Notes under the pieces: generated by a model
The model's input: only the letters and a program-made list of their open reading frames with translations
Told to the model about the DNA's origin: nothing
The model's database searches: none
Made by a program: the position numbers and the translations under genes
NCBI GenBank assembly: GCA_024762975.1
Contig: JANTGJ010000022.1
Span: 1 to 33,865, forward strand
Direction: 5' to 3'
Origin: Candidatus Krumholzibacteriia bacterium
Lineage (GTDB): Bacteria; Krumholzibacteriota; Krumholzibacteriia; LZORAL124-64-63
Length of the DNA: 33,865 nucleotides
In this document: positions 1,108 through 16,962 of the stretch, one piece after another
How the letters are laid out: each line of letters starts with the position of its first letter
Numbering within the stretch: the first letter of the stretch is position 1

Positions 1108-3327
1108 CTACGCCAATCCGATCCGCCGCTTCAATTCCCCGAACTCGGCGTCATCCCACGCCGATTCCCACAACCGCTCCACATCGAGCGCCACACAGAA
1201 CGCGTCCCGATCCTCGAGCGCCCGGTCCATCCACCGGTAGTAGGCGTCCTTGTTGCCCAAATACAGATGCAGTGTCGCGACGGCAGTCGGGCAGGTGGGA
1301 TTCGATTCCCATTGCTTCTCCAGTTTCCCGAGAATGGCGATCGCCTCGTCCCGCCGGCCCAGACCCACCAGGGAACAGCCCATCTTGGCGGTCGGCCACG
1401 GAGCCCCGTGGCTGGTCTCGACGCCCTTCTGCAGCGTGGCGTAGGCGCCGGCGAAGTCCTGCTTCAACAGCTGCGCGTAGCCCTTCAGGTGATAGCCCTC
1501 GGGAAAGTTCGGGTCCTGGGCGATGAGCCGGTCCATCCGTTCGATGCCGGCATCGTGGTCCAGGGCGAAAACATGAACAGCCCCCTCGATGACTTGGCCG
1601 AAGAAGGCGAGCGGATCCAGTCGCAGTCCGGCAGTCGCCTGGGCCTTTGCGCCTTCCAGGTCGCCGACGAAGGAGAGATACCAAGCGTGCAGGAATCGGT
1701 CGTAACCCAGCCCGGGTTCGAGGCTCGCAGCCTTCGCGTACAAGCGCCCGGCCTCGTCCCAGTCCCAGTCCAGGTAGGCCTTTACCGAGGCCAGCAGTTC
1801 GTAGCCCACGCCCAGTGACGGATCCAGCGCGAGAGCCTGTTCGGCCAGCTCGCGCACCCGCGCCCATGTCGGACGGGCCGGGACCACGCCGAACAGGGCG
1901 GCCTGCGTCAGCACCGTGCCCATGGCCGTCAGCGCGGGGGCGAAGGACGGGTCGCGGGCGATCGCCTGCTCCAGGCATTCCAGCGCGTCGGGCATGCGCA
2001 TCACGCTCTGTCCCGACAGGTACTTGGCCCGCAGGTAGAGTTCGTAGGTCTCGATGTCCGTCTTGTGGACGGCGCGTTCCCCGCTCCCGGTCAGCCGGAC
2101 GCGCAGTTCGTCGACGATGGCGGCCGAGATCTGCTCCTGCATCGCAAAAACGTCGTCCATCGTGCCGCCGTACTTCTCGGCCCAGACGTGCGCGTCGGTC
2201 GTGCCGTCGATCAGCTGGGCGGTGATGCGCAGTTGCGGCCCGGCCCGCCGCACGCTGCCCTCCAGCAGGTAGCGCACGTCCAGGATGCGGGCGATTTCTT
2301 TCAGATCACCGGTGCGCTGGCGCGCCGCCGCGCTGGAGTTGCGGGCAATGACGCTCAGCGAGGAAACCTTCGACAGGTCGGCGATGATCTCCTCGGTCAG
2401 TCCGTCGGCGAGGTACGAGTCATCCTCGTTGGGGCTGAGGTTGTCGAAGGGGACGACGGCGATGGAACGGTCTCCGGTGGACCGCACAGCCGCAGCAACG
2501 GGGGTGTGGCCGGCCAGGGCGCCGGCGAATTCGCCCGCGGTAGTGAAACGATCTGCAGGCTCTCGGGCCAGGGCCCGCGCCACGGCGGACTCGCACGAGG
2601 GAGGTACCGAGGCGCCGGAGGCGCTCAACCGCGGGGCGTCCTCGACCAGGCGGCGCGCCAATACCGAATGGACGTCGCCGCCGGCGAAGGGGCGAGTGCC
2701 GGTCAGCAGCTCGAAGAGAACGATGCCCAAGCTGTAGATGTCGGCCGCGGGCCCGATGTCACTCTCGCCGCGAGCCTGTTCGGGACTGACGTAGAACGGA
2801 GTACCGAGGACCGCGCCGACCCGCGTCATAGCCACCGTTTCGTCCTGGTCGGCAGTGCTCTCCTGCGTGCGCGCGAGGCCGAAGTCGGCCAGCATCGCAT
2901 GGCCCCGGCTGAGCAGGATGTTGCTCGGCTTCAGATCGCGGTGCAGTACGCCCTCCTCGTGGGCGTAGTCGAGTGCCTCTGCTACTTCGCTGGTCAGCCG
3001 GATCGCCTCGTCCGTCGGCAGGGGGCCTTTGCGCTTCAGGTACTCGGCCAGGCTCTCGCCGTCGATCAACGGCATGACGTAGAACAGTTGGCCCTCGGCC
3101 TCCCCGGAATCGAAGACAGGAACGATCTGCGGATGCTGCAACCTCGCGGCGATGCCGATCTCGCGTAGGAAGCGCTCCGAAACCACGGACGAGGCGATCT
3201 CGGGCAGCATCACCTTCAGGGCGACATCGCGCCCATGACGCTCGTCCCGGGCGCGGTAGACCGTGGCCATACCGCCGCGGCCGAGTTCGTCGAGGATCGC
3301 GTAGTGAGCCAGTTTTCTGCCGATCAT
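1108..3327 (-). CDS. Ser/Thr protein kinase with TolB-like domain and TPR repeats
   Basis: This 739-residue cytoplasmic protein begins with a complete eukaryotic-type kinase domain (about 1-270). It has the glycine loop GRGGMATVY (16-24), the ATP-binding lysine in VALKVM (K38), the catalytic loop HRDLKPSN (129-136), DFG (148-150) and the activation-segment motif GTPFYVSPEQ. Residues ~295-430 resemble the TolB-like/FlgO-like domain often fused to such kinases or to adenylate cyclases (SIAVVPFDNLSP, LADGLTEEI, YLLEGSVRR, WAEKY). The remaining ~300 residues are helical TPR-like repeats. No transmembrane segment is visible, unlike many PknB proteins. I chose ATG 3327 because MIGRKLAHYAILDELG is the standard family start; the frame stays open 38 codons further upstream but without homology-like sequence. 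An AGTAGG sequence lies just upstream. Its substrates are unknown. It sits in the island with the surface proteins, but no operon link is visible. Confidence 0.93.
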   Translation of the reverse strand: MIGRKLAHYAILDELGRGGMATVYRARDERHGRDVALKVMLPEIASSVVSERFLREIGIAARLQHPQIVPVFDSGEAEGQLFYVMPLIDGESLAEYLKRKGPLPTDEAIRLTSEVAEALDYAHEEGVLHRDLKPSNILLSRGHAMLADFGLARTQESTADQDETVAMTRVGAVLGTPFYVSPEQARGESDIGPAADIYSLGIVLFELLTGTRPFAGGDVHSVLARRLVEDAPRLSASGASVPPSCESAVARALAREPADRFTTAGEFAGALAGHTPVAAAVRSTGDRSIAVVPFDNLSPNEDDSYLADGLTEEIIADLSKVSSLSVIARNSSAAARQRTGDLKEIARILDVRYLLEGSVRRAGPQLRITAQLIDGTTDAHVWAEKYGGTMDDVFAMQEQISAAIVDELRVRLTGSGERAVHKTDIETYELYLRAKYLSGQSVMRMPDALECLEQAIARDPSFAPALTAMGTVLTQAALFGVVPARPTWARVRELAEQALALDPSLGVGYELLASVKAYLDWDWDEAGRLYAKAASLEPGLGYDRFLHAWYLSFVGDLEGAKAQATAGLRLDPLAFFGQVIEGAVHVFALDHDAGIERMDRLIAQDPNFPEGYHLKGYAQLLKQDFAGAYATLQKGVETSHGAPWPTAKMGCSLVGLGRRDEAIAILGKLEKQWESNPTCPTAVATLHLYLGNKDAYYRWMDRALEDRDAFCVALDVERLWESAWDDAEFGELKRRIGLA

Positions 3328-3695
3328 GGACCTACTTTCGAAGAATGGATTTCGAATGGGAATATCGAAACAGTCTAAGCAAAACCGATACGACCGCCAA
3401 CGCCGCCCGCGCCTGTGTCCCGAACCTGAATCGTCAGGCAAGGCTCAATTTTCCGCGTCCGGTGCCGATACCGCATGGACCGGATTCCGACGTTTGTCTC
3501 TCCAGACCAGGCTTGGAGCCCATGTCCGTATTCGCACTGCATGCCGAAGCCGAAGAGCGCTCGCAGGCGCGCGCCCGTTTGGCCGTGTCCGCCTCCGTGA
3601 TCGTCGTGCTGGCTCTGCGGTTGCTGACAGGAAATTCAGCCGCATCGTCTGCCCTCCGAGCCCTGGGTCTCCTCCATTACATCGCCAAATTCTGC

Positions 3696-3722
3696 CACAC
3701 TGATCACACTGATCACACTGAT
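3696..3722. repeat. Three tandem copies of a 9-base unit
   Basis: CACACTGAT occurs three times in a row (3696-3704, 3705-3713, 3714-3722) without mismatch. In plus-strand translation it reads TDHTDHTD; on the minus strand it reads SVISVISV. No gene in either frame looks real, so I treat it as a non-coding microsatellite-like repeat. Confidence 0.85.
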
Positions 3723-3800
3723 CGCCCGTTGTCCGTATCCATCTTCCTCCAAGCCGGCTAAAACCTCGCATTCCGGCCTCGGGAGCCCCATACCGCCCCG

Positions 3801-3858
3801 TCGAGGACAGACCGTCACACCGACCGTCTGATCCAGATCAGGCCGGTCGCCCACTCCA
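3801..3858 (+). repeat. 58-base dispersed repeat, copy 1
   Basis: It begins TCGAGGACAGACCG and ends CGCCCACTCCA. The same 58 bases recur at 5343-5400 in the same orientation with 5 mismatches and no gaps. The two copies bracket the secreted-protein gene 4150-5094 and the lipoprotein relic. I see no third copy in the window. Confidence 0.85.
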
Positions 3859-4149
3859 GCGTCCTGGTTGAATTCGAACTCCGCCTGCGGCGTCGGCCGA
3901 CCAGCCGACGGCGCCAGCTTCGACCCGCGGCAGCGAGGATAGGTAGGCGCCCACCGGAGCCTCAGCCCCGGCGGTACTCGTCACCGGACTGCGATCAGGA
4001 TTACTGAGGTCGTTAATTTCATGATCTCAATAGGTTACGGCACCAGTTGATCCCACTCAATTCTAAACGTGCAAAAACATGACTATTATGGTATTCTATT
4101 GGACTCGAATTCAAGTCCGGCATCATTCATCAACCTTGGAGGGATTGAT

Positions 4150-5094
4150 ATGCTGCGCCGATGGTTCCTGCCTTTTTTGATCCTGAGTTTACTTCTGACG
4201 GCCTCGGCCGGCGCCCAGATGGTTCCCATCAACCAGTCGCGTTCTTCGGACGCCACCGCAGAACTCTATGATGAAACCTCGGGTAATTCGTATGGCGACA
4301 GCCAGTATGACGAAGCATTCGACTTCCTTCCTTTTGACAGCAGCCTGTACGCGTCCGCCTTCGAGGACCAGGGCTACGCCGATGCCGAAGCCACACAGTA
4401 CTCGACCATCGGCCCGGATACGCTGTTGGTCCAATGCTACGTCTACGGCCAAGCCGAGATCTTCGAGGATCAATGGTCCGGTTACTGCTTCGCCTCGTCC
4501 TATTTCGATTTCGAGTTCTCGCTGGATTCGGAGCATACCTGGAACCTGAACGGCTCGGCCGATGCCAACGGCGGTGGGTCGGCCGACATGTACATTTTCA
4601 ATGAGTTCGGCAATATCGTCTGGTCGGATTCCTGGTGGGGCGAAGGCAGCCTGCTGCTGAACTACAGCGGCACCCTGCCGGCCGGTACCTACACTTTCGC
4701 GACCTCCGTCTACGTGGGATTCGAGGGGGTATTCTTCCCCGACTACGCCGCCGCCGAAGCGGGACTGGACTGCGTGTTCACCGTTTCCGGCAGTGGTCCC
4801 ACCGCGGTCGGCGACTCTTTCGCTGCCGAGCGCCACTTGAGCGCCGGCCCGAATCCAATGTCCGAGCGCACGATGATCTCGTTTGCCGGCGCTCCGCAAC
4901 GACCGGTGCAGCTGGATGTCTTCGACGTGCGGGGCCGGTTGGTCAAGCGCCTGGTCGAGGGCACGCAGTCGAGCGGCCAGGTGGCCTGGGACGGCCGCGA
5001 TGCCAACGGTCGCCGCGTTCCGCAGGGCACCTATTTCCTGCGCATGCGCAGCGGGGACGAGGTGCAGCAACGGAAGGTCGCCGTCGTACGCTAG
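4150..5094 (+). CDS. Secreted protein with C-terminal FlgD/Ig-like sorting domain
   Basis: The 314-residue product starts with a signal peptide (RRWFLPFLILSLLLTASAGA, cleavage probably before QMVP). The start ATG at 4150 is preceded by GGAGGG (4138-4143) at good spacing; a further in-frame ATG 27 codons upstream has no such site and would bury the signal peptide. Residues ~25-220 are acidic and rich in Asp, Tyr and Ser, with beta-strand-like segments, and I do not recognise the family. Residues ~235-314 match the FlgD-like/T9SS type A-like C-terminal module: LSAGPNPMSERTMISF, then LDVFDVRGRLVKRL, then GTYFLRM. Such modules direct or anchor proteins at the surface of related bacteria. Whether a type IX system exists here cannot be seen from the window. 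The gene is monocistronic with a strong terminator. Confidence 0.9.
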   Translation: MLRRWFLPFLILSLLLTASAGAQMVPINQSRSSDATAELYDETSGNSYGDSQYDEAFDFLPFDSSLYASAFEDQGYADAEATQYSTIGPDTLLVQCYVYGQAEIFEDQWSGYCFASSYFDFEFSLDSEHTWNLNGSADANGGGSADMYIFNEFGNIVWSDSWWGEGSLLLNYSGTLPAGTYTFATSVYVGFEGVFFPDYAAAEAGLDCVFTVSGSGPTAVGDSFAAERHLSAGPNPMSERTMISFAGAPQRPVQLDVFDVRGRLVKRLVEGTQSSGQVAWDGRDANGRRVPQGTYFLRMRSGDEVQQRKVAVVR

Positions 5095-5467: not shown

Positions 5468-8400
5468 CTACTTCAGCAAGGTGATTTTCCGCGTCCGCGA
5501 ACCCTCCGTCGTGATCAACTGCACAAAATAGACACCCGAGTTCACCGACTGCCCGCGGTCATCCCGTCCGTACCAGATGGCTTCATGCCACCCAAGGTCC
5601 TGCTTTTCGTCCACGAGCGACCGCACCAACCGGCCCCGCAGATCGAATACCTTCAATTGCACGCGGCCGTTGCGGGTCGTGGTGTATTGAACCGTAGTGG
5701 TCGGGTTGAATGGGTTGGGGTAGTTGCTGCCCAGCCCGAACACAATGGGCACGGCCTCAATTTTGGCCGGTCCATACAGACTCGTCGTTCCATCCGGGTG
5801 AGAGATCTCCAGCCAGTAAGCGCAGGCGCCGTAGGGGGCTCCTTCGTCCACGGTTCGGTACTCGGAGCTCTTCAAACCTGAGAGCGAGACCACCGGCGTT
5901 CTCTCTGCGCCATCGACCTCGCGCAATACCGTGAAGGTGGCTCCGGGGCCGGCGCCCTCGGTCGTCCAGGCGATCTCGACTTCCCGGCCGCTGCGCTGTG
6001 CACTCAGATCGCACGTTGCCGTGCCCAGGTAGCCCGGTTCGAAACGCTCGATGCGGTGCGTCGCCTCATTGAACCGATAGATCTCGGTGAAGTCGGGACT
6101 CGCGGCCACCACCGTGCTCGCATCGTCGAATTCGTGTACGGCAGTCAGGGAATTGACATCGAACAACGAATTTGAGCCGATCGCCCAGGTGCCGGTGCGG
6201 TTGGTGGCATAGATCTCGGCGCCCAGATCGCCCAGTACGATCAGGTTGTCGCTGAAGACCCGTCCGCGCCAGAAGAGCCGTGAACCATCCCCAGAAAGCA
6301 CGAGGTGAGCCAACCCGGCCGGGTGACCGCCGACCGTGGCAACCGCCGTCGGCGGGACTGTCGAGACATTGTATTTACGCAGATAAGGGGTGCTTTCGCT
6401 TTGCTCGGAATGATAGTAGAACAATCCTCCGTAGGTAGCCTCACCGTCCCCTTCGCGGGTGCGGAAGGATGTCACTTCGGCGCCGGTTGTCGTGTCGAAG
6501 ATCCGAGCCTGAACCCATCCCTCGGCTTCCTCTGTGATCACCCGGCCGTAGCCCAGGGCGTTGAGGCGGTAGACATCGTTACCCAGCAGCAGGGGCTGAA
6601 GTTCAGTGAGCGTCAGCAGATCAATGACTCGTGTCTCGTCGTGCTGCCAGTTGGTCACGTAGAGTCGGTTCTCGAAATAATTGATGTCCATGTCCGTCGG
6701 GTTGGACCCGATGGGGATCAGTCTTTCGACTTTCTGCTGCTGCGTATCGTAGACCACCAACAACGCATCGGCATCGGTCCCGCTGCCGGGGTGCAAGCCG
6801 TACAGGTAGGGCCGCACCTCGTCGTAGATCAGCATCGATAGGGACAGCTCGACGATCTCGATGGAGACCGGCAACTCGAGGTCCAGTCCTGCGGCCGATA
6901 GCTGGACCGAGCCCTGGTGCTGACCCGCCGCCAGACCACTGATATCGAAAGACAGCTCGACGCTTGAAGGAGCCGAGCCCGAGTCGATGTTGGGCGTGAG
7001 CCAGTCCGTCGATTCCTCCAATTCCCAATCCGAAACCCCGACCAGGGCCTCCTCACCGATGGTCAGGTTGCGTACGATGGGATCCGAGCCCAGCGGCATC
7101 ATCAAATCGAGGTGGTCCCAGTTCACTGATAGTGGGAATACATGGAAGCTCCATACGTCGCCCACGCCCGTGCTTGCGTAACGTACGTTCTCCACGCGCC
7201 AGAAATAGGTGGCGCCCAAAGCCAGCGGCTGGGTCAGGTTCAGCGTCGGCTCGTCGAATTCGCCCAGGTAGCTCGGCGAGTTCTCAGTGGCACCTGCTAC
7301 CTCGGTCGAGTCGGTTCCGGCGTAAACCCGGTAGGCGGTGGCTTGCGGATCGGAATCCCAGGCCAGGGTCTCCAGGCGGGGCGAAACCGTGCTGCCGTTC
7401 GCGGGAATTCGTTGCTGTTCGAGGTTCGGGAGTTGGCCGATCAGGTCCATGGGGATGGCCTCGATGCGGCGCAGCCCTTCGTTAAACAGGAAGAGCTTCT
7501 TCTGGTCGCCGGCCACGGCCAGAATCGACGACTCCGTCGGCATCGTGTAGATCGGCTCGAAGGTGGCCACATTGAAAGCGGTCGTGGCCGAGAAGGCGAA
7601 CTCTCCGTGCCGTGTCGTGGCGTAGATTTCCTGCCCCAAACGGCCCAACTCGTTCACGTCCGAGTCGTAGATGTAGCCGTTCTTCCAGAACAGGCGGGTA
7701 CCGTCGGCGCTCATCACCAGGTTTCTCGAGCCGTAGGCTCGGTCGGGGCCTTCGGCCAATTCAACGAAGACATCGTCTGAGATATCGTATTTTGTCAGAT
7801 GAGCCCCGGTCGAGTTGTTGCCACAGTGGTAGTAGTAGTTTCCGGTCGGATCGACTTCGCCGTCTCCTTCCCGGACCCGCGTCGTGGCCAGAGTCTCGCC
7901 TGTTGCGGAGTCTACGCAGTGGATATAGAGCCACTGGTCCTCTTCCTCGAAGTAGATGCGGCCGGGGCGGCCGGCGTTCAGCTTGTAGACGTCCGAACCA
8001 AGCGCCAACGGTTCCAACAACTGATGAGTGTTCAGATCGACGACCCGCGTAAACTCGCGCTGCCAGTTGCTGACGTACAATCGGCCCTCGCCGTAGTTGA
8101 TCGTCAGGTCGGTCGGGTTCGATCCGATCGGGAGCGAGAGGTCGATGTTCTCGGTCTCGGTGTTGATGAATAGCAGGAAGGCGTCCTCGAAGCCGCCACT
8201 GCCTGGGTTCAGGGCGTAGATGTAGGGCCGAGTTTGGTCGGCCAACATCTTCGAGACATCCATCTGGATCAACCGCATTCGAATGGAAACGTCGAAGGTG
8301 GCTTCGCCCGATTCGAAACGCAGCGTGCCAGTGTATTCGCCGGAATGTAGGCCACTGACATCCAAGTCGATTCGCAGCGAATCGGGAGCCGAGCCGCTGG

Positions 8401-11400
8401 ATTGACCGAGGCTGAGCCACTCGATTTCCTCACTGACGGACCACTCTGCCGTTTCGCCGTCGGTCGAAATCGCTAGCCACAACGGGAGCGGGGACGTGCC
8501 CTCGACCGCCGCGAAATCCAGACTATTCGGGTCGATCACCAGCGGTGCGACGTCGAAATGCCAGACGGCTCCTTGGACGGTTCCAGCGAAACCGACCATG
8601 TCCACGCGCCAGAAATAGGTCGCGCCCAGTTCCAGCTCGGCCACCAGGTCGATGTGCGAGGTAGCAAGCTCGCCCAGGTATTCGGGACCATCGGGTGTCG
8701 CTTCGGCGACCGCCGTCGAATCGGTTCCGAAGTAGACTTGGTAGGCGATCGCCAACGGATCCAGATCCCACGTCAGTTCGCGGCGCGGGAGCACGACGGT
8801 ACTTCCGTCGGCTGGATCCGGATTCAGGCCCGGGGTCGGAAGATCGGCGATTTCACTCATCGGAATGTATCGCACTCGTGCCTGTTGGTGATCGTAGATC
8901 AGAAGCTTGGCCTGGTCAGGCGAGACCGCTTGGACCCCGCTGCTGAACGGCAAGGTGTAGATTTGGCTGCCGGTATGGGTGTTGAAGACGCCGTCATAGG
9001 TAAATGCCAAATCCCCGTGCAGGCTCGTCGCAACCACGTTGCCAGCTATTTGGCCCAACTCGTTCAGATCGGCATCGTAGACGTAGCCTCTCCAGAACAG
9101 GCGAGTGCCGTCGGCGCTCAGCAGCAGGCTGCGCGAGCCGTAGGGGTGCTCCAGGCTTTCGGCCATTTGCGTGAAGGAATCATCCGAGATGTCGTACTTC
9201 GTGATGTGAGCGTTCGAGATATTGTTGTCGCAGTGGTAGTAGTAGTTGCCTGTAGGGTCGATCTCGCCGTCGCCCTCTCGGGCGTGCTGCCGGGCGACCG
9301 TTTCACCGGTGGCCGTGTCGATACAGTTGATGTCGACCCACTGATCCTCTTCTTCGACGTAAAGGCGACCGGGCCGTCCCGCGTTCAGCTTGTAGACATC
9401 CGCACCCAGATCCAACGGCGCGAGCTGCTGCCGTGTCTCCAGGTCGACGACCCGGGTGAAACCGCGCAGCCAGTTATTGACGTACAGGCGCCCTTCGCCG
9501 CGGTTGATCGTCATGTCGGTGGCGTTCGACCCGATCGGAATCGTGCGCTCCACGTTCTCGGTTTCGGGATTGATGAAGTGCAGGTAGGCGTCCTCGGTCG
9601 TGCTGTTGCCCTGCTGAAGTCCGTAGACCACCGGACGTTCGGGGTCCGCCAGCATCTTGAATAGGTCCATCTGGATCACGTTCAATGCGATGGGAACGAC
9701 GAACTCCATTGCTCGGGCAGTGAATACCAGGTCGCCCGCGTAGTGCCCATTGGGCAGGTCGGTGATCTTCAGGCTCAACGTCAGGCCGGCCGGGGTCGTA
9801 CCACTGCTCAGGTCGGCCTCCAACCAGGGAATATCCTCACTGAGACTCCATTGGTCGATCGAGCGGTCGGCGATCAGTTGAAGTTCAATCGCCTCCGGGA
9901 TCGAGCCCCTCACGGCCGTCAGTGTGGCCTGCGTGGGTTCGATCCGTATCGGCGCCGTCTGGAACGACCAGACCGCCCCGGTTTCCGTGCCGCCATATCC
10001 GATGGTGTCGATGCGCCAGAAGTAGCGAGCCGCCAGCCGCAACGGGTCGGTCAATTCGATCGAGGTTTCTGTGACTTCGCCCAGGTACTCGGCCGAATCG
10101 GTCGTGGCGCCGACAACACGGCTCGAATCGGCACCAAAGTAGATCTGATAGCCGACCGCGACCGGGTCGACGTTCCAAGCCAGGCGGGGCAGTGGGGACA
10201 CTACGATCGCGCCGTCCGCCGGCTGCGGATTCAACCCGGCCGGTGGCAAGTCGGCAATCTCGCTCATCGGAATCACCGCCAGGTCGTGGGCGCCATCGTC
10301 GAATAGAAACAGCTTCGTCTGGTCACCGGCGACGGCCATAACGCTCGTACTGAACGGCAACGAATAGATCGAAGTCCCTCTCTCGACGTCATAGATGCGC
10401 GAGCTCGACATGGCCAACTCGCCGTGGCGGGAGGTCGCGTAGATCTCGGCGCTGAGATACCCGATCTCGTGCAGATCCGCGTCGTAGACGTAGCCGTTCT
10501 TCCAGAACAGCCGGGATCCGTCAGGACTCATGACGAGGTTGCGCGATCCGTAGGGGTGCTCTTCGCTCTGGCCCAGTTCAAACCATTGATCCTGCGAGAT
10601 GTCGTACTTCGCGATGTGGGCGTTCGAGATTCCATTGGTGCAGTGGTAGTAGAAATTGCCGTTCGGTGAAACCTCGCCATCGCCCTCACGTTCGCGTGTG
10701 ACGGCCACTTCGGCGCCGGATTCCGTGTCGATGGCGGTAACATCGATCCATTGATTGTCCTCTTCGACATACAGGCGTCCCGGTCGCCCGGCGTTCAGGC
10801 GGTAGACATCCTGGCCCAGTGCGAGCGAAGGCAACTGCTGCCAGGTCTCAAGGTCGACGACTCGCGTTTCCGGATGCCCCCAGTTGTTGACATACAGCCT
10901 GGCCTCGCCCTGGTTGACCGTCAAATCGGTGGCGCCGAAGCCGATGGGCAGGGCGCGATCGATGTTCTCGGTTTTGGTGTCGATGAACAGCAGCAGCGAT
11001 TCATCCTCGGGGCTGGCGCCGGTCTGCAGGGCATAGATGTAGGGCCGGGCGGGGTCCGCCAGCATCTTGGAAATACTCAAATCCACGATGTTCAACTCGA
11101 TGGGAAAATCGAACTCGCGCGCACCGGAGACGAAGTGTAGCAATCCATTGAGAGTTCCCGTCGGGTAGTCCGTGATTTTCAACGTGACGGTCAAAACTGC
11201 GGGCGTTCGCCCGGCATGCAGGTCGACGTCGACCCAGGGCAGGTCCTCGCTCATGGTCCACTGACTGATCGACCGGTCGGCCTCAAGCTCGATCGTTACC
11301 GTTTGCGGCCGCGAGTTGCGCACGGCGTCCAGCGCCAGGGCGCGCGGATCGATCTCGAACGGGGCAGTCTGGAAGGACCAGATCTCGCCGATGCGGCTTT

Positions 11401-12628
11401 CGGCCAGACCGACGGAGTCGACGCGCCAGTAGTACTGCGTCGCCATTTCCAACAAGATGTTCAGGTCGATGGAGCCACCGGTAACCTCTCCCAGGTACTC
11501 CGGTGATTCCAGGGTGGCTGCGGCCACGGCATTCGCGTCGGTGCCGAAATAGACCTGGTAGCGCAGAACGGCGGGCTGGGTTTCCCATGCCAGAGCCGCC
11601 AACGGAGTCACGATGGTCGTTTCGTTCGAGGGCTCGGGAATCAGGGCCTCGTTCGGCAGGGCAGCGAACGTATCGCTAGCCATAACCTCGATCTGCTGCA
11701 CCGACTCGTCGTAGTAGTACAGTTTTTCCTGGTTTCCGGAGACGGCGATCACTCTTGAGACCGATGGCAAGGGTGCGACCGGTGCCAACGTGTTGGCGTT
11801 GTACACCATCGTCGAGGAAAAGGCGTAGTCGCCTCCGTAGGTGGATTCGTAGATCTCGTCTTCCAGCGAACCCAGTTCATTCAGGTCGGTGTCGAAGATG
11901 ACGCCATTCTTCCAGAACAGACGAGTCCCGTCGGGACTCAGAACGAGGTTTCGCGAGCCGTAGGCATGAACGGCGCTTTCGGCGATCTCGGTGAAACCGT
12001 CTCCGGAGATGTCGTACTTGTGTAGCGTAGCACCCGAAGAATTGTTGTCGCTGTGGTAGTAGTAGTTGCCCGTGGGATCGACTTCACCGTCGCCCTCTCG
12101 CACAAAGGTGGTGCTGATAGTGGATCCGGCCGCACTATTGACCGCAACAATATTGATCCACTGATCCTCTTGTTCGTAATAGATGCGTCCGGCACGCCCG
12201 GCGTTCAGCTTGTAGACGTCCGTGCCCAGGTTCAGGATGTCCACCAGTTGTTGGATCTCCAAATCGATGGCCCGCGTGGCGTTATTGCGCCAGTCCGTCA
12301 GGTAGAGCCGCTTCTCGGGGTAGTTGATCGTCAGGTCGGTCGTGCGAACCCCGATCTGCATCGTGCTGACGATCTCATCGGTATCCGTACTGATGATCAG
12401 CAACTGGTCCGGATCCTCAACATTGATGCCGTCCTGTACGGCGTAGATGTACGGGCGCTCCTGATCCGCCAGCAGGTGGATGATGCGCTCGGTATCGGCG
12501 ATGCTTTTCTGAGGAGCGGGCATCGAGCCGGAACCTCCGCGCTGTAGGGACTCGGCACCCAGTGCCACAGAAGTCGCCAGCAGGCACGACACGAAGATGA
12601 CCGAAATAAAACGTCGGGAACGGAACAC
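5468..12628 (-). CDS. Giant secreted protein: five beta-propeller modules with Fn3/BACON-like linkers and sorting domain
   Basis: The 2386-residue product starts at GTG 12628 with AGGGGG about 9 bases upstream, and a signal peptide (RFISVIFVSCLLATSVALGA). Five modules follow, starting near residues 48, 514, 984, 1454 and 1924, with a period of ~470 residues. Each begins with a ~280-residue propeller-like domain. Its conserved signatures are LADxxRPYIYAL, IGxxxTDLTINxxExRLYV, LNAGRPGRxYxEExDQW, REGDGEVDPTGNYYYH and YGSRNLVxSxDGTRLFWKNG. Modules 1-4 continue with an Fn3-like domain (NPxPADGxxV, YQVYFGTDS, YFWRVD, WSFQTAP) and a BACON-like all-beta domain (QWSxSEDxPWL). After the fifth propeller come one more Fn3-like domain (~2200-2290) and the FlgD-like sorting domain (2294-2386; SNYPNPFNPTTT, LKVFDLRGRLVRSL, GVYFVQL, KITLLK). 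The role is probably cell-surface binding; the ligand is unknown. The tandem modules must have arisen by internal duplication. Confidence 0.93.
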   Translation of the reverse strand: MFRSRRFISVIFVSCLLATSVALGAESLQRGGSGSMPAPQKSIADTERIIHLLADQERPYIYAVQDGINVEDPDQLLIISTDTDEIVSTMQIGVRTTDLTINYPEKRLYLTDWRNNATRAIDLEIQQLVDILNLGTDVYKLNAGRAGRIYYEQEDQWINIVAVNSAAGSTISTTFVREGDGEVDPTGNYYYHSDNNSSGATLHKYDISGDGFTEIAESAVHAYGSRNLVLSPDGTRLFWKNGVIFDTDLNELGSLEDEIYESTYGGDYAFSSTMVYNANTLAPVAPLPSVSRVIAVSGNQEKLYYYDESVQQIEVMASDTFAALPNEALIPEPSNETTIVTPLAALAWETQPAVLRYQVYFGTDANAVAAATLESPEYLGEVTGGSIDLNILLEMATQYYWRVDSVGLAESRIGEIWSFQTAPFEIDPRALALDAVRNSRPQTVTIELEADRSISQWTMSEDLPWVDVDLHAGRTPAVLTVTLKITDYPTGTLNGLLHFVSGAREFDFPIELNIVDLSISKMLADPARPYIYALQTGASPEDESLLLFIDTKTENIDRALPIGFGATDLTVNQGEARLYVNNWGHPETRVVDLETWQQLPSLALGQDVYRLNAGRPGRLYVEEDNQWIDVTAIDTESGAEVAVTREREGDGEVSPNGNFYYHCTNGISNAHIAKYDISQDQWFELGQSEEHPYGSRNLVMSPDGSRLFWKNGYVYDADLHEIGYLSAEIYATSRHGELAMSSSRIYDVERGTSIYSLPFSTSVMAVAGDQTKLFLFDDGAHDLAVIPMSEIADLPPAGLNPQPADGAIVVSPLPRLAWNVDPVAVGYQIYFGADSSRVVGATTDSAEYLGEVTETSIELTDPLRLAARYFWRIDTIGYGGTETGAVWSFQTAPIRIEPTQATLTAVRGSIPEAIELQLIADRSIDQWSLSEDIPWLEADLSSGTTPAGLTLSLKITDLPNGHYAGDLVFTARAMEFVVPIALNVIQMDLFKMLADPERPVVYGLQQGNSTTEDAYLHFINPETENVERTIPIGSNATDMTINRGEGRLYVNNWLRGFTRVVDLETRQQLAPLDLGADVYKLNAGRPGRLYVEEEDQWVDINCIDTATGETVARQHAREGDGEIDPTGNYYYHCDNNISNAHITKYDISDDSFTQMAESLEHPYGSRSLLLSADGTRLFWRGYVYDADLNELGQIAGNVVATSLHGDLAFTYDGVFNTHTGSQIYTLPFSSGVQAVSPDQAKLLIYDHQQARVRYIPMSEIADLPTPGLNPDPADGSTVVLPRRELTWDLDPLAIAYQVYFGTDSTAVAEATPDGPEYLGELATSHIDLVAELELGATYFWRVDMVGFAGTVQGAVWHFDVAPLVIDPNSLDFAAVEGTSPLPLWLAISTDGETAEWSVSEEIEWLSLGQSSGSAPDSLRIDLDVSGLHSGEYTGTLRFESGEATFDVSIRMRLIQMDVSKMLADQTRPYIYALNPGSGGFEDAFLLFINTETENIDLSLPIGSNPTDLTINYGEGRLYVSNWQREFTRVVDLNTHQLLEPLALGSDVYKLNAGRPGRIYFEEEDQWLYIHCVDSATGETLATTRVREGDGEVDPTGNYYYHCGNNSTGAHLTKYDISDDVFVELAEGPDRAYGSRNLVMSADGTRLFWKNGYIYDSDVNELGRLGQEIYATTRHGEFAFSATTAFNVATFEPIYTMPTESSILAVAGDQKKLFLFNEGLRRIEAIPMDLIGQLPNLEQQRIPANGSTVSPRLETLAWDSDPQATAYRVYAGTDSTEVAGATENSPSYLGEFDEPTLNLTQPLALGATYFWRVENVRYASTGVGDVWSFHVFPLSVNWDHLDLMMPLGSDPIVRNLTIGEEALVGVSDWELEESTDWLTPNIDSGSAPSSVELSFDISGLAAGQHQGSVQLSAAGLDLELPVSIEIVELSLSMLIYDEVRPYLYGLHPGSGTDADALLVVYDTQQQKVERLIPIGSNPTDMDINYFENRLYVTNWQHDETRVIDLLTLTELQPLLLGNDVYRLNALGYGRVITEEAEGWVQARIFDTTTGAEVTSFRTREGDGEATYGGLFYYHSEQSESTPYLRKYNVSTVPPTAVATVGGHPAGLAHLVLSGDGSRLFWRGRVFSDNLIVLGDLGAEIYATNRTGTWAIGSNSLFDVNSLTAVHEFDDASTVVAASPDFTEIYRFNEATHRIERFEPGYLGTATCDLSAQRSGREVEIAWTTEGAGPGATFTVLREVDGAERTPVVSLSGLKSSEYRTVDEGAPYGACAYWLEISHPDGTTSLYGPAKIEAVPIVFGLGSNYPNPFNPTTTVQYTTTRNGRVQLKVFDLRGRLVRSLVDEKQDLGWHEAIWYGRDDRGQSVNSGVYFVQLITTEGSRTRKITLLK

Positions 12629-12763
12629 GGTGGTACCCCCTGGAAGTGCGCGGCCGATGCGAACTCAAGCCAAACGCCGCGGTGCTTGTGCGCGCGGAAC
12701 CGGTTGATTGCGTGCCCGGCTCGAATCATCGATTCGGACCATGGCCGTGGGCGAGGGAATGCC

Positions 12764-13164: not shown

Positions 13165-16100
13165 ATGAAACTCGCTGTCTACATTGCTTTCCTGCTACTG
13201 ATTGTTTCCGGAATCTCTACTGCGCGGGATGTGCCACCGGTTACGGCGTTTGACGTTGTCCCGGTTGAGTGGCCCGTCGCTCAAGGCGGTAACGGCCACT
13301 ACTACGCCATCGTAAGTGCTGCCGAAACTCCATTTGAAGACGGCGGTATGACGTGGGCCGAGGCCGATTCGCTGGCGAAACTGATGCATCATTTGGGTAG
13401 GGACGGCCATCTGGCGACAATCACCAGCGCCGAAGAACATCACTTCATCATGCAGCTGCCGGATCTGGTTTGCGATCTCCTCGAAGGCTTTGGCTGTGAC
13501 AAGTTACACTTGGGCGGCTGGTCTACCGTAACCGAGGTGATCAGTCCCACTCCCATGTTCGCTCCCTACGTCGTTACGACAACGGAGCAATGGATTACGG
13601 GAGAAGTCGGTACCTATACCGTAACACCGGATGCGCATGCTGTGGGGCCGGTAGGCGAAGTCCTTCGCTTTGCATGGGGCACCTACAGTTTGACCGGTAT
13701 GGGGCTGCCCCCCTATGACCCTCATGCCTCGCCCCATGATTTGGGTTATGGGTACATCGTCGAGTTTGACGACTATGATCCCAATCACTATCCGGAGAAC
13801 AGTGCCGATCCGCTCCCGATCGTCTACGTCTCCACCGAGGGGGACGACGCCAATCCGGGTACCGCTGAGCATCCATTCGCTACGATCCAATACGCAATCA
13901 ACTCGGCGGCCGAAGGCGACACTGTATTGATCATGGATGGTACCTATACCGGCGCCGGCAACCGGGACATTCTCTATCATGGAAAGGGAATAACCGTACG
14001 TTCGGCGTCGAGGGATCCCGAAGTGTGCGTCATCGATTGCCAGGCAAGCGCAGCCGATCCCCACCGGGGCTTCTGGTTTCACAGCGGAGAAGACAGCACG
14101 GCGGTGCTGGAGGGTGTCACGATATCCAACGCCTACAGCGTTGGCGATGGCGGAGGCATCTGGGTCGGCGGAAATGGCGAAGATATCGACACCTCGCCGG
14201 TGGTAAATAACTGCCGGTTCATCGGTAACCACGCGCAGGGTCGTGGCGGGGCGATCTGTTGCGGGAGCGCAGACTACTGGACATGGTTCGATCGCGCATT
14301 TCCAAAGATTATCGATTGCGAGTTTTTGGAGAACACGGCCAGTAGTAGCGGTGGTTGCATTGCATCCTGCATACGTTCCGGTCCGCAGATCGAAAATTGT
14401 GTATTCCTGGACAGTGAAGCACCTCAAGGGGGTGCAATCAGCAATGAGTGGTTGACCCGTGGTGCTTTTGCAGAGTGCGTATTTGAAGGAAACTCTGCTT
14501 CTCGAGGGGGTGCCGTTTACGAGTATTGGGAGCAGTCCAATTCCTATTTCGCATGTTCATTCAAGAACAACATCGCTAGCGACCTGGGTGGTGGTTTTTG
14601 TAACAGCAACGGCGAATCGAAGAGGAAGATCGATACGTCGAAGGCGGACAAGCTGACGGATCCATTATTCGAGAATTGTGTTTTCGAAAACAATAGCGCG
14701 TTTCGAGGCGGGGCGATCTATGTGTCCCATTTGAGCGAGTTCGATGTGCTTGGGTGCACGCTCGTGGGCAATACGGCGTCGTTTGCTGCGGGTGGAATCC
14801 ATTTCTATGGCGATGGGGCGACATTCGCAGGTAGTGTGTTTGCCGACAACTCGTCCCCGAAGGGGGGTGCTTTTCTGGTCTACGTTTCCGGATCGCAATC
14901 GGTGGAGTTTACCGGCAGCACATTCGTGGGCAATTCGTCCCCGATCGGAGCGGCGATCGATATCGAAAGGCTCGATGTTCCCAGCTTGATGCCCATTCGC
15001 AATTGCCTATTGGTAGGAAATCTGATCGGAAGTGCAATTCTGGTGTACGACGATCCGGACAGCGAAGCTCCGGAGATCTCTTGTACAAACATATTCGGCA
15101 ACGAGGGAGGAGACTGGGTCGGCTACATCGAAAACTCTGCAGGCATTGGCGGCAATCTCCAACTCGACCCGATGTTCTGCAATCTGGTCGAGCGCGACCT
15201 GAATTTGATGTCCAGTAGCCCATGCGCGGCGGAAAACAACCCCGGATGCGGTAGGATCGGAGCGCTCGGCGTCGCCTGCAACACACCTCAATGGGTCGAC
15301 ATCGCCACGGCCGAGATGACTTCAGCCGACTACACAACAGGTGTCGCTTTGGTCGATGTCGATGGCGACGGCGATCCCGATCCAGCCTGGGCGAGTTGGG
15401 GTACGGCGACCGGATCAATCTTTGCGAACGACTCCGGCACCAGCTTTTTGCGGATCACAGGAACTCCGCTCGATCAGGTTGCCACCGCGACCAGCCTCGT
15501 GTTCGGAACGGTCGACGTCGACTACCTACCCGAGATCTTCATCGGACAATTGGCTCCGGATTCAGAGAAAGTGTTGCTCGAGAACAGCTACCCCGACTTT
15601 ACGGACATCACAAGCGAACTGCTGGCGTGCGCAGGGGACAGAGTCCGCTCAGCTTCATGGATCGACTACGATGGCGACGGAATGTTGGACCTGCATGTTC
15701 CGGTGTTCGACGGTCCAGATCGCATGTTTCGGAAGATCCATGGACAGGGATTCGTCGAGGTCGATCCGGGAGATCTTGCGGTTGCTGGTACGTCGCTGGG
15801 AGCAGCGTGGGGCGATGTGGACAATGATGGTGATCCGGATTGCTACGTGATCACCCGGGACACGCCGAACGTCCTGCTGCGCAACGACGGCGGAGGCCAC
15901 TTCGCTGATGCCACGACGGCAGCGCTGGCGACGAGTGCTCATGGTCAGGGTGCCGCATGGGGCGATTACGATAACGATGGCTGGCTCGACCTGTATTTGA
16001 CGAACGCGGATGGAGAGAACGTACTCTTTCACAACGAGGGCCATAGCGTGGGCGACATCGCATTGACTCCGATGCCAGGAGTCATGGCCGATATCGAACA

Positions 16101-16962
16101 CGGCCAAAGTGGGGTTTGGTTGGACTATGACCTGGACGGCGACCTGGACCTCTACCTGACGCAATTCGACGCCCCGAATCGCCTTTACGAAAACGGAGGC
16201 GGAGGGGTGTTCACAGATGTTGCGACGGGTGTTGTGGCCGATGGAGGCCCAAGCCTGGGCGCCGCGGTCGGCGACATAGACGGAGATGGGGACCCAGATC
16301 TGCTGATGGGGAACTACGGTGCAGAAAACCGCCTACTACGAAACGAGCAGAGCACGGGGAACCACTGGCTCACCGTTCGTCTACGCGCGCCTGCGCCCAT
16401 GTCCGATTGGGTCAACAATACGCTTTGTATCGGTGCCCGGGTTCGAATCGTGACCGGAGCGACCCAGCAGATTCGTGAGATTGGTTCCAACCGGGGTATG
16501 TGGTCCCAGAACGCGATCGAAGCCCATTTTGGGTTGGGTTCTACTGATCATGTCGATGCGCTCGAGGTCGTCTGGCCGTGGGGCGAAACGTCTTCTCACG
16601 CAGTGACCGCGGTCGACGAGATTCTTACGATCGAGGCGGGGGAATTCACTTCAGCGGTATACGATACCGAAGACCTGCCTCGTGTCTTCCGTTTGTCCGC
16701 TGCGCATCCTAATCCCTTCAATCCGATGACGACGATCTCGTACGAGTTGCCTCAGGCCACCCGGGTCACGCTGACGATTCATGATATCCGCGGTCACCTG
16801 ATCGCTACCTTGGTCGATGGTCGACTTACCGAACCGGGTCAACATGAATCGAACTGGCGGGGTTGCAACGAACAAGGGCAGGCCGTGGCTACTGGGGTGT
16901 ACTTCTACCGGATCGAGGCCGGAGATTTTGTGCAAACGAGACGTATGACGCTATTGAAGTAG
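13165..16962 (+). CDS. Secreted mosaic protein: C-type-lectin-like, beta-helix, VCBS/FG-GAP, ASPIC/UnbV and sorting domain
   Basis: The 1265-residue product starts at ATG 13165 behind GGAGGAGGCC, with a signal peptide (KLAVYIAFLLLIVSGISTA). Residues ~40-215 resemble a C-type-lectin-like domain (NGHYYAIV, WAEADSLA, GHLATITSAEEHHFI, LGGW, W.TGE, YGYIVEFDDYD). Residues ~218-700 form a right-handed parallel beta-helix (VYVSTEGDDANPGTAEHPFA, GDTVLIMDGTY, then repeated CxFxxNxAxxxGGAI turns as in Pmp-type proteins). Residues ~710-1060 contain at least six Asp-rich FG-GAP/VCBS motifs (DVDGDGDPD, DYDGDGMLD, DVDNDGDPD, DYDNDGWLD, DYDLDGDLD, DIDGDGDPD) that should bind calcium in an integrin-like propeller. 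An ASPIC/UnbV domain (~1066-1155) and a FlgD-like sorting domain (1181-1265; HPNPFNPMTT, DIRGHLIATL, GVYFYRI, MTLLK) follow. A role in carbohydrate or surface binding outside the cell is inferred. Confidence 0.92.
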   Translation: MKLAVYIAFLLLIVSGISTARDVPPVTAFDVVPVEWPVAQGGNGHYYAIVSAAETPFEDGGMTWAEADSLAKLMHHLGRDGHLATITSAEEHHFIMQLPDLVCDLLEGFGCDKLHLGGWSTVTEVISPTPMFAPYVVTTTEQWITGEVGTYTVTPDAHAVGPVGEVLRFAWGTYSLTGMGLPPYDPHASPHDLGYGYIVEFDDYDPNHYPENSADPLPIVYVSTEGDDANPGTAEHPFATIQYAINSAAEGDTVLIMDGTYTGAGNRDILYHGKGITVRSASRDPEVCVIDCQASAADPHRGFWFHSGEDSTAVLEGVTISNAYSVGDGGGIWVGGNGEDIDTSPVVNNCRFIGNHAQGRGGAICCGSADYWTWFDRAFPKIIDCEFLENTASSSGGCIASCIRSGPQIENCVFLDSEAPQGGAISNEWLTRGAFAECVFEGNSASRGGAVYEYWEQSNSYFACSFKNNIASDLGGGFCNSNGESKRKIDTSKADKLTDPLFENCVFENNSAFRGGAIYVSHLSEFDVLGCTLVGNTASFAAGGIHFYGDGATFAGSVFADNSSPKGGAFLVYVSGSQSVEFTGSTFVGNSSPIGAAIDIERLDVPSLMPIRNCLLVGNLIGSAILVYDDPDSEAPEISCTNIFGNEGGDWVGYIENSAGIGGNLQLDPMFCNLVERDLNLMSSSPCAAENNPGCGRIGALGVACNTPQWVDIATAEMTSADYTTGVALVDVDGDGDPDPAWASWGTATGSIFANDSGTSFLRITGTPLDQVATATSLVFGTVDVDYLPEIFIGQLAPDSEKVLLENSYPDFTDITSELLACAGDRVRSASWIDYDGDGMLDLHVPVFDGPDRMFRKIHGQGFVEVDPGDLAVAGTSLGAAWGDVDNDGDPDCYVITRDTPNVLLRNDGGGHFADATTAALATSAHGQGAAWGDYDNDGWLDLYLTNADGENVLFHNEGHSVGDIALTPMPGVMADIEHGQSGVWLDYDLDGDLDLYLTQFDAPNRLYENGGGGVFTDVATGVVADGGPSLGAAVGDIDGDGDPDLLMGNYGAENRLLRNEQSTGNHWLTVRLRAPAPMSDWVNNTLCIGARVRIVTGATQQIREIGSNRGMWSQNAIEAHFGLGSTDHVDALEVVWPWGETSSHAVTAVDEILTIEAGEFTSAVYDTEDLPRVFRLSAAHPNPFNPMTTISYELPQATRVTLTIHDIRGHLIATLVDGRLTEPGQHESNWRGCNEQGQAVATGVYFYRIEAGDFVQTRRMTLLK

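Follow-up and report, generated by a model that had tools for sequence, protein, structure and literature searches.

The gene at positions 5468-12628 of the analysed window, by which we mean the whole stretch of 33,865 nucleotides from a Candidatus Krumholzibacteriia bacterium, encodes a protein of 2386 residues with five repeated modules, a predicted seven-bladed beta-propeller in each of them, and a C-terminal sorting domain of the type IX secretion system (T9SS). We propose that this protein is a chain of five YVTN-type propellers that are held apart by Fn3-BACON spacer pairs, and that it would be secreted and attached to the cell surface. The signal peptide would mediate passage across the inner membrane via Sec, and the C-terminal tail would mediate passage across the outer membrane via the type IX system and leave the protein on the surface. 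Each propeller could then act as a binding head, repeated propellers would bind a polymer or an adjacent surface with higher avidity, and duplication would tune how many middle modules each lineage has. Binding and avidity are what we infer for this array, a multivalent adhesin being plausible, and our confidence in the complete reading as a T9SS-exported, surface-attached multivalent binding or adhesion array is evenly balanced.

The open reading frame begins with GTG and ends with TAG. Its extent and length had been given exactly in the earlier note, which needs to be corrected in that the coding strand is the minus strand. A Shine-Dalgarno-like AGGGGG stretch is found at 12636-12641, just upstream of the start, and a terminator scan revealed no intrinsic terminator 3' of the gene. 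The first 25 residues (FRSRRFISVIFVSCLLATSVALGA; 12554-12628, minus strand) resemble a signal peptide in sequence, and the hydrophobicity peak of the whole protein is at residues 7-25. This N-terminus, in which no canonical lipobox is found, looks like a Sec signal peptide.

The five copies of the repeat start at residues 46, 516, 986, 1455, and 1927, with a spacing of about 470 residues. In modules 1-4, a propeller of about 282 residues is followed by an Fn3-like and a BACON-like domain of about 94 residues each. The propeller parts of the five copies are 35-59% identical, copy 5 being the most divergent, and local alignment of the copies resulted in Z-scores of 62-174 relative to shuffled copies, so that a chance or low-complexity repeat could be ruled out. 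As the DNA identity between the copies is only 51-66%, the module duplications are old. The signatures LNAGRPGR, REGDGE...YYH, YGSRNLV, and LFWKNG were found again in the copies and are weakened in copy 5. Both the five-fold repeat and the recurrence of these signatures had been claimed in the earlier note, and both were confirmed.

All modules are encoded on the minus strand. Alignment of the copies places the propeller of module 1 at residues 46-330 (11639-12493) and its Fn3-like and BACON-like linker at about residues 328-515 (11084-11647), the fold of this linker being assigned via homology to module 2. The module 2 propeller comprises residues 516-800 (10229-11083), and the AlphaFold2 model and the profiles place the Fn3-like domain of its linker at about 798-891 and the BACON-like domain at about 892-985 (together 9674-10237). 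The propeller of module 3 (residues 986-1269; 8822-9673), delimited by alignment and by a two-propeller model, is followed by a linker at about residues 1267-1454 (8267-8830), in which the BACON_2 profile PF19190 matched at 1364-1450 with 23.1 bits, just below the cut-off of 25. In module 4, the propeller was aligned at residues 1455-1739 (7412-8266), and the linker was placed by profiles and alignment at about 1737-1926 (6851-7420). The propeller of module 5 (residues 1927-2197; 6038-6850) has no Fn3-BACON pair and is joined instead to another Fn3-like domain and the sorting domain, as the earlier note had correctly described. This single, different Fn3-like domain at about residues 2198-2296 (5741-6037) was recognised in the sequence, has no profile match of its own, and occurs in the same layout in the relative L024. 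The T9SS type A (Por_Secre_tail) sorting domain follows at residues 2303-2382 (5483-5722). Modules 3 and 4 alone have two cysteines per propeller, separated by 31 residues and located in blades 3 and 4 (residues 1102/1133 at 9325 and 9232, and residues 1571/1602 at 7918 and 7825, minus strand); these pairs could form cross-blade disulphides.

From an input of 35 modules of the window and its relatives, AlphaFold2 predicted module 2 with a mean pLDDT of 93.3. The strands fit seven blades, the last of them three-stranded, and two beta domains follow. The propeller that had been proposed from the letters alone is thereby borne out by the structure prediction of one module, and the further assignment of Fn3-like and BACON-like domains and of a sorting tail is supported by structure prediction and profiles. 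Two consecutive propellers with their linker were predicted with a pLDDT of 91.4 and a pTM of 0.64, and the relative placement of the domains, which determines the overall shape of the chain, is therefore only partly fixed in the model. In a fold search, this two-propeller model matched only generic multi-propeller proteins, and the TM-scores were low.

The YVTN repeat model TIGR02276 matched the protein above its cut-off (42.9 bits versus 27.85). At the respective cut-offs, the propeller is covered neither by a Pfam family nor by a full-length NCBIfam family. To this extent, the earlier remark that no described family with this arrangement was known stands, but the design has a described precedent in archaeal YVTN-PKD surface proteins (1L0Q). 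The full-length model TIGR03866 reached 96 bits for the whole protein. This partial similarity, together with that to lactonase-like NCBIfam models, would fit an exported enzyme with lactonase- or PQQ-like propellers as tandem catalytic heads, which we nevertheless regard as very unlikely, because the cut-off of TIGR03866 is 287.3 bits, single propellers scored far lower than 96 bits, and no catalytic motif was recognised. Olfactomedin (PF02191) was ruled out, as only a 44-residue stretch matched and our model is seven-bladed, whereas the OLF domain is a five-bladed propeller. FG-GAP was not detected in the protein by the Pfam profile search.

For the linkers, the BACON profiles (PF13004/PF19190) matched 7 of 19 at E<0.01, and the relatives L075 (33.5 bits) and L087 (52.9 bits) exceeded the BACON cut-off. 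In the Pfam profile search, PF00041 (fn3) did not match any linker, and there was one weak match of Ig_Rha78A_N. We therefore call the first linker domain Fn3-like only, which is supported by fold and pattern. PKD had no Pfam match in the protein or in the linkers; the Fn3-like and BACON-like domains stand in that place.

The sorting tail scored above both of its cut-offs, with 31.2 bits versus 27 for PF18962 and 37.3 versus 23 for TIGR04183. In the genome of the window (3.8 Mb, 96% complete, 265 contigs), SprA (TIGR04189) was found above the cut-off, in pieces on the contigs C69 and C73, and the PorV family (NF033709) had nine matches above the cut-off, which makes the type IX route plausible. 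The SprA pieces cover different parts of the model, reflecting either an assembly split or two partial genes. Surface location is well supported by the putative signal peptide, the T9SS tail, and the presence of SprA and PorV in the genome, and it is more secure than the function. More than 100 further sorting-tail matches were found elsewhere in the same genome, a very large exported repertoire for 3.8 Mb.

A neighbouring gene (4069-5094, plus strand) encodes another sorting-tail protein according to the profile search. On the other side, a gene at 13165-16962 (plus strand), which is divergently transcribed from the propeller gene, encodes an exported protein of 1265 residues with PMP-type repeats, FG-GAP, ASPIC/UnbV, and a FlgD-like sorting tail. 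A TPR-containing Ser/Thr kinase and a leucyl-tRNA synthetase are also encoded nearby, and from their sequences the neighbouring genes do not suggest any pathway. This context bears on the idea of a nutrient or metal scavenger, in which each propeller would capture a small molecule at the surface in the manner of BtuG. BtuG is indeed a surface-exposed seven-bladed propeller (PMC6143338), and the family profile also matches the ligand- or cofactor-handling propellers of YncE, NirF, and hydrazine synthase. We still consider a scavenger quite improbable, since no outer-membrane transporter or btuB gene was recognised among the neighbouring genes searched, and since a long multi-head array would be unusual for delivery to a transporter.

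The earlier note had suggested that the conserved segments could line a binding surface, an idea that the pattern of conservation does not support. Conservation by structural element is highest in the core strands B (0.60) and A (0.56) and in the AB turns (0.54), while the loops of the top face score lower (DA 0.50, BC 0.43), and most of the motif conservation can therefore be related to the fold. A putative site could be made up of scattered charged and aromatic residues (e.g., H147, R103, K159, W68, and D53, numbered within the module). Within the window, the conservation was 53% for the propeller, 47% for the Fn3-like domain, and 30% for the BACON-like domain. Across proteins, the Fn3-like domain is the most conserved, as much as or more than the propeller, and the BACON-like domain is the least conserved. 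The idea that the propeller is the sole constrained part is true inside the window and fails across proteins; the constraint therefore does not single out the propeller.

Such a conservation of the Fn3-like domain would also agree with a role that is mainly structural, and a structural stalk or envelope component is the main rival to the binding array. The protein would then be an extended stalk or a part of the envelope or matrix, similar to an S-layer, with the propellers as rigid spacers for which no specific ligand is needed. The prevalence of conservation in core strands and turns, the highly conserved Fn3 spacers, the variable copy number of the middle modules, and the designation of the nearest structure, 1L0Q, as a surface layer protein all agree with this alternative, and yet we rate it as rather unlikely. 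An essential coat does not agree with the patchy occurrence, as full-length propellers of this family are found in just 2 of 80 genomes from the phylum of the window, one of them the window's own genome, and no second propeller copy was found on the contigs of the window's genome. In addition, a pure spacer would not need the two distinct and anciently separated propeller types described below.

A third genome of the phylum gave a short, weak match only. Among Verrucomicrobiota, 14 of 388 sampled genomes matched at E < 1e-12, including the Limisphaerales relative. Between one and six propellers were matched per protein, and their spacing is similar. In the relative G034, four modules lie at one contig end, and the last module lies at another together with the same Fn3-like domain and sorting tail; its gene appears to be split across the two contig ends. 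Next to the gene of a relative in L021, a Candidatus Krumholzibacteriia MAG of the same taxonomic family as the window, there is a gene (2402-4747, plus strand) for an exported protein of 781 residues that has propeller-like repeats and its own sorting tail.

Among the relatives whose start is intact, most have an N-terminus that resembles a signal peptide, and parts that are typical of extracellular proteins (fn3, Ig, cadherin, reelin-like, FG-GAP, and RCC1-like) are found in the relatives. In Verrucomicrobiota, the module is combined with fn3, reelin-like, Ig, RCC1-like, FG-GAP, and PQQ domains and in one case with a subtilase, and L075 has no T9SS tail. These varied partners and export ends indicate that the module behaves as a cassette whose partner and export domains can be exchanged. 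Two verrucomicrobial proteins (L087 610-10320 and L088 6892-15975) have two divergent propellers at their C-terminal end, which in L087 are preceded by the subtilase and several consecutive HYDIN/ASH-like Ig domains. A scan of all genome contigs with strict patterns detected only three loci, and because of this strictness, more distant members are possible in other phyla. A phage or viral origin was ruled out, as no relative was found in the phages and viral contigs searched. The plasmid search resulted in weak partial matches only, two of which were annotated generic propellers.

In a tree of 52 propellers, two old types, A and B, were separated with a support of 98/93, and type B usually occupies the first position in a protein. 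Among the middle modules, those of type A cluster according to the protein they come from (G034 modules 2-4 and L075 modules 1-6, each with 100/99). The last module of the window forms a pair with that of G034 (100/97 in this tree and 100/99 in a smaller one), and the last module is orthologous between these two proteins of the phylum. A possible link of this pair to the last module of L022 gained support only in the large tree (97/87, against 36/79 in the small tree). Positional orthology of modules 2, 3, and 4 of the window with the same-numbered modules of G034 was rejected (p-AU 0.0015, 0.003, and 0.002), while modules 1-4 of the window as one group gave a p-AU of 0.46. The rejected positional orthology and the grouping by protein indicate that each lineage gained or homogenised its middle modules independently while the last module remained fixed. 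A more far-reaching possibility, which we regard as unlikely, is that propeller-Fn3-BACON is an unnamed cassette family that moved between phyla and expanded independently in each lineage beside a conserved last module. It would then serve as a fast-changing surface recognition array that determines specificity for prey, partner, or polymer, and its two or more ancient propeller types would differ in what they recognise.

If the binding role of the array holds true, it would be a testable candidate for the attachment of these uncultured bacteria to particles or partners. The propeller family, which has neither a Pfam nor a full-length NCBIfam model, is present in giant exported proteins from two phyla that have received little study. 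The literature search revealed no direct match to the propeller-Fn3-BACON architecture, and several known systems share aspects of it. BACON domains are also repeated within one protein in the tandem arrays of crAssphage and Bacteroides (PMC6949934), for which no propellers are described, whereas BACON alternates with propeller and Fn3-like domains in our protein. Tandem seven-bladed propellers are known in bacteria from integrin-type FG-GAP proteins, which sometimes have two in tandem (PMC3192720), but these carry calcium motifs, and FG-GAP was not detected in the five-propeller protein. The Leptospira surface antigen Lp49 (PDB 3BWS), a profile match with an E-value of 1.6e-11, likewise has a propeller, but only a single one. 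Bacteroides BtuG has a ligand-binding, surface-exposed seven-bladed propeller, as our modules would, and BtuG2 binds vitamin B12 very tightly (PMC6143338); however, BtuG is a single-propeller lipoprotein encoded beside btuB, a context not seen here.

The nearest solved structure is that of the Methanosarcina YVTN propeller-PKD surface layer protein (PDB 1L0Q; Jing et al., 2002, as cited in PMC6143338 and PMC5498576), with E-values of 1.5e-31 in the sequence profile comparison and 5e-14 in the Foldseek fold search. The design therefore has a precedent, and for surface proteins with PKD and YVTN domains, a role in cell-cell contact has been proposed (PMC5498576). Both proteins combine extracellular YVTN-type propellers with Ig-like beta-sandwich domains, but the protein analysed here is bacterial, has Fn3-like and BACON-like domains instead of PKD as linker, irregular blades, a T9SS tail, and five propellers per chain. 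The archaeal design of tandem propellers and Ig-like domains at the surface thus exists in bacteria as well, where the linkers and the export tails are different. The design is of a known kind, and new are the propeller family and the combination of linkers.
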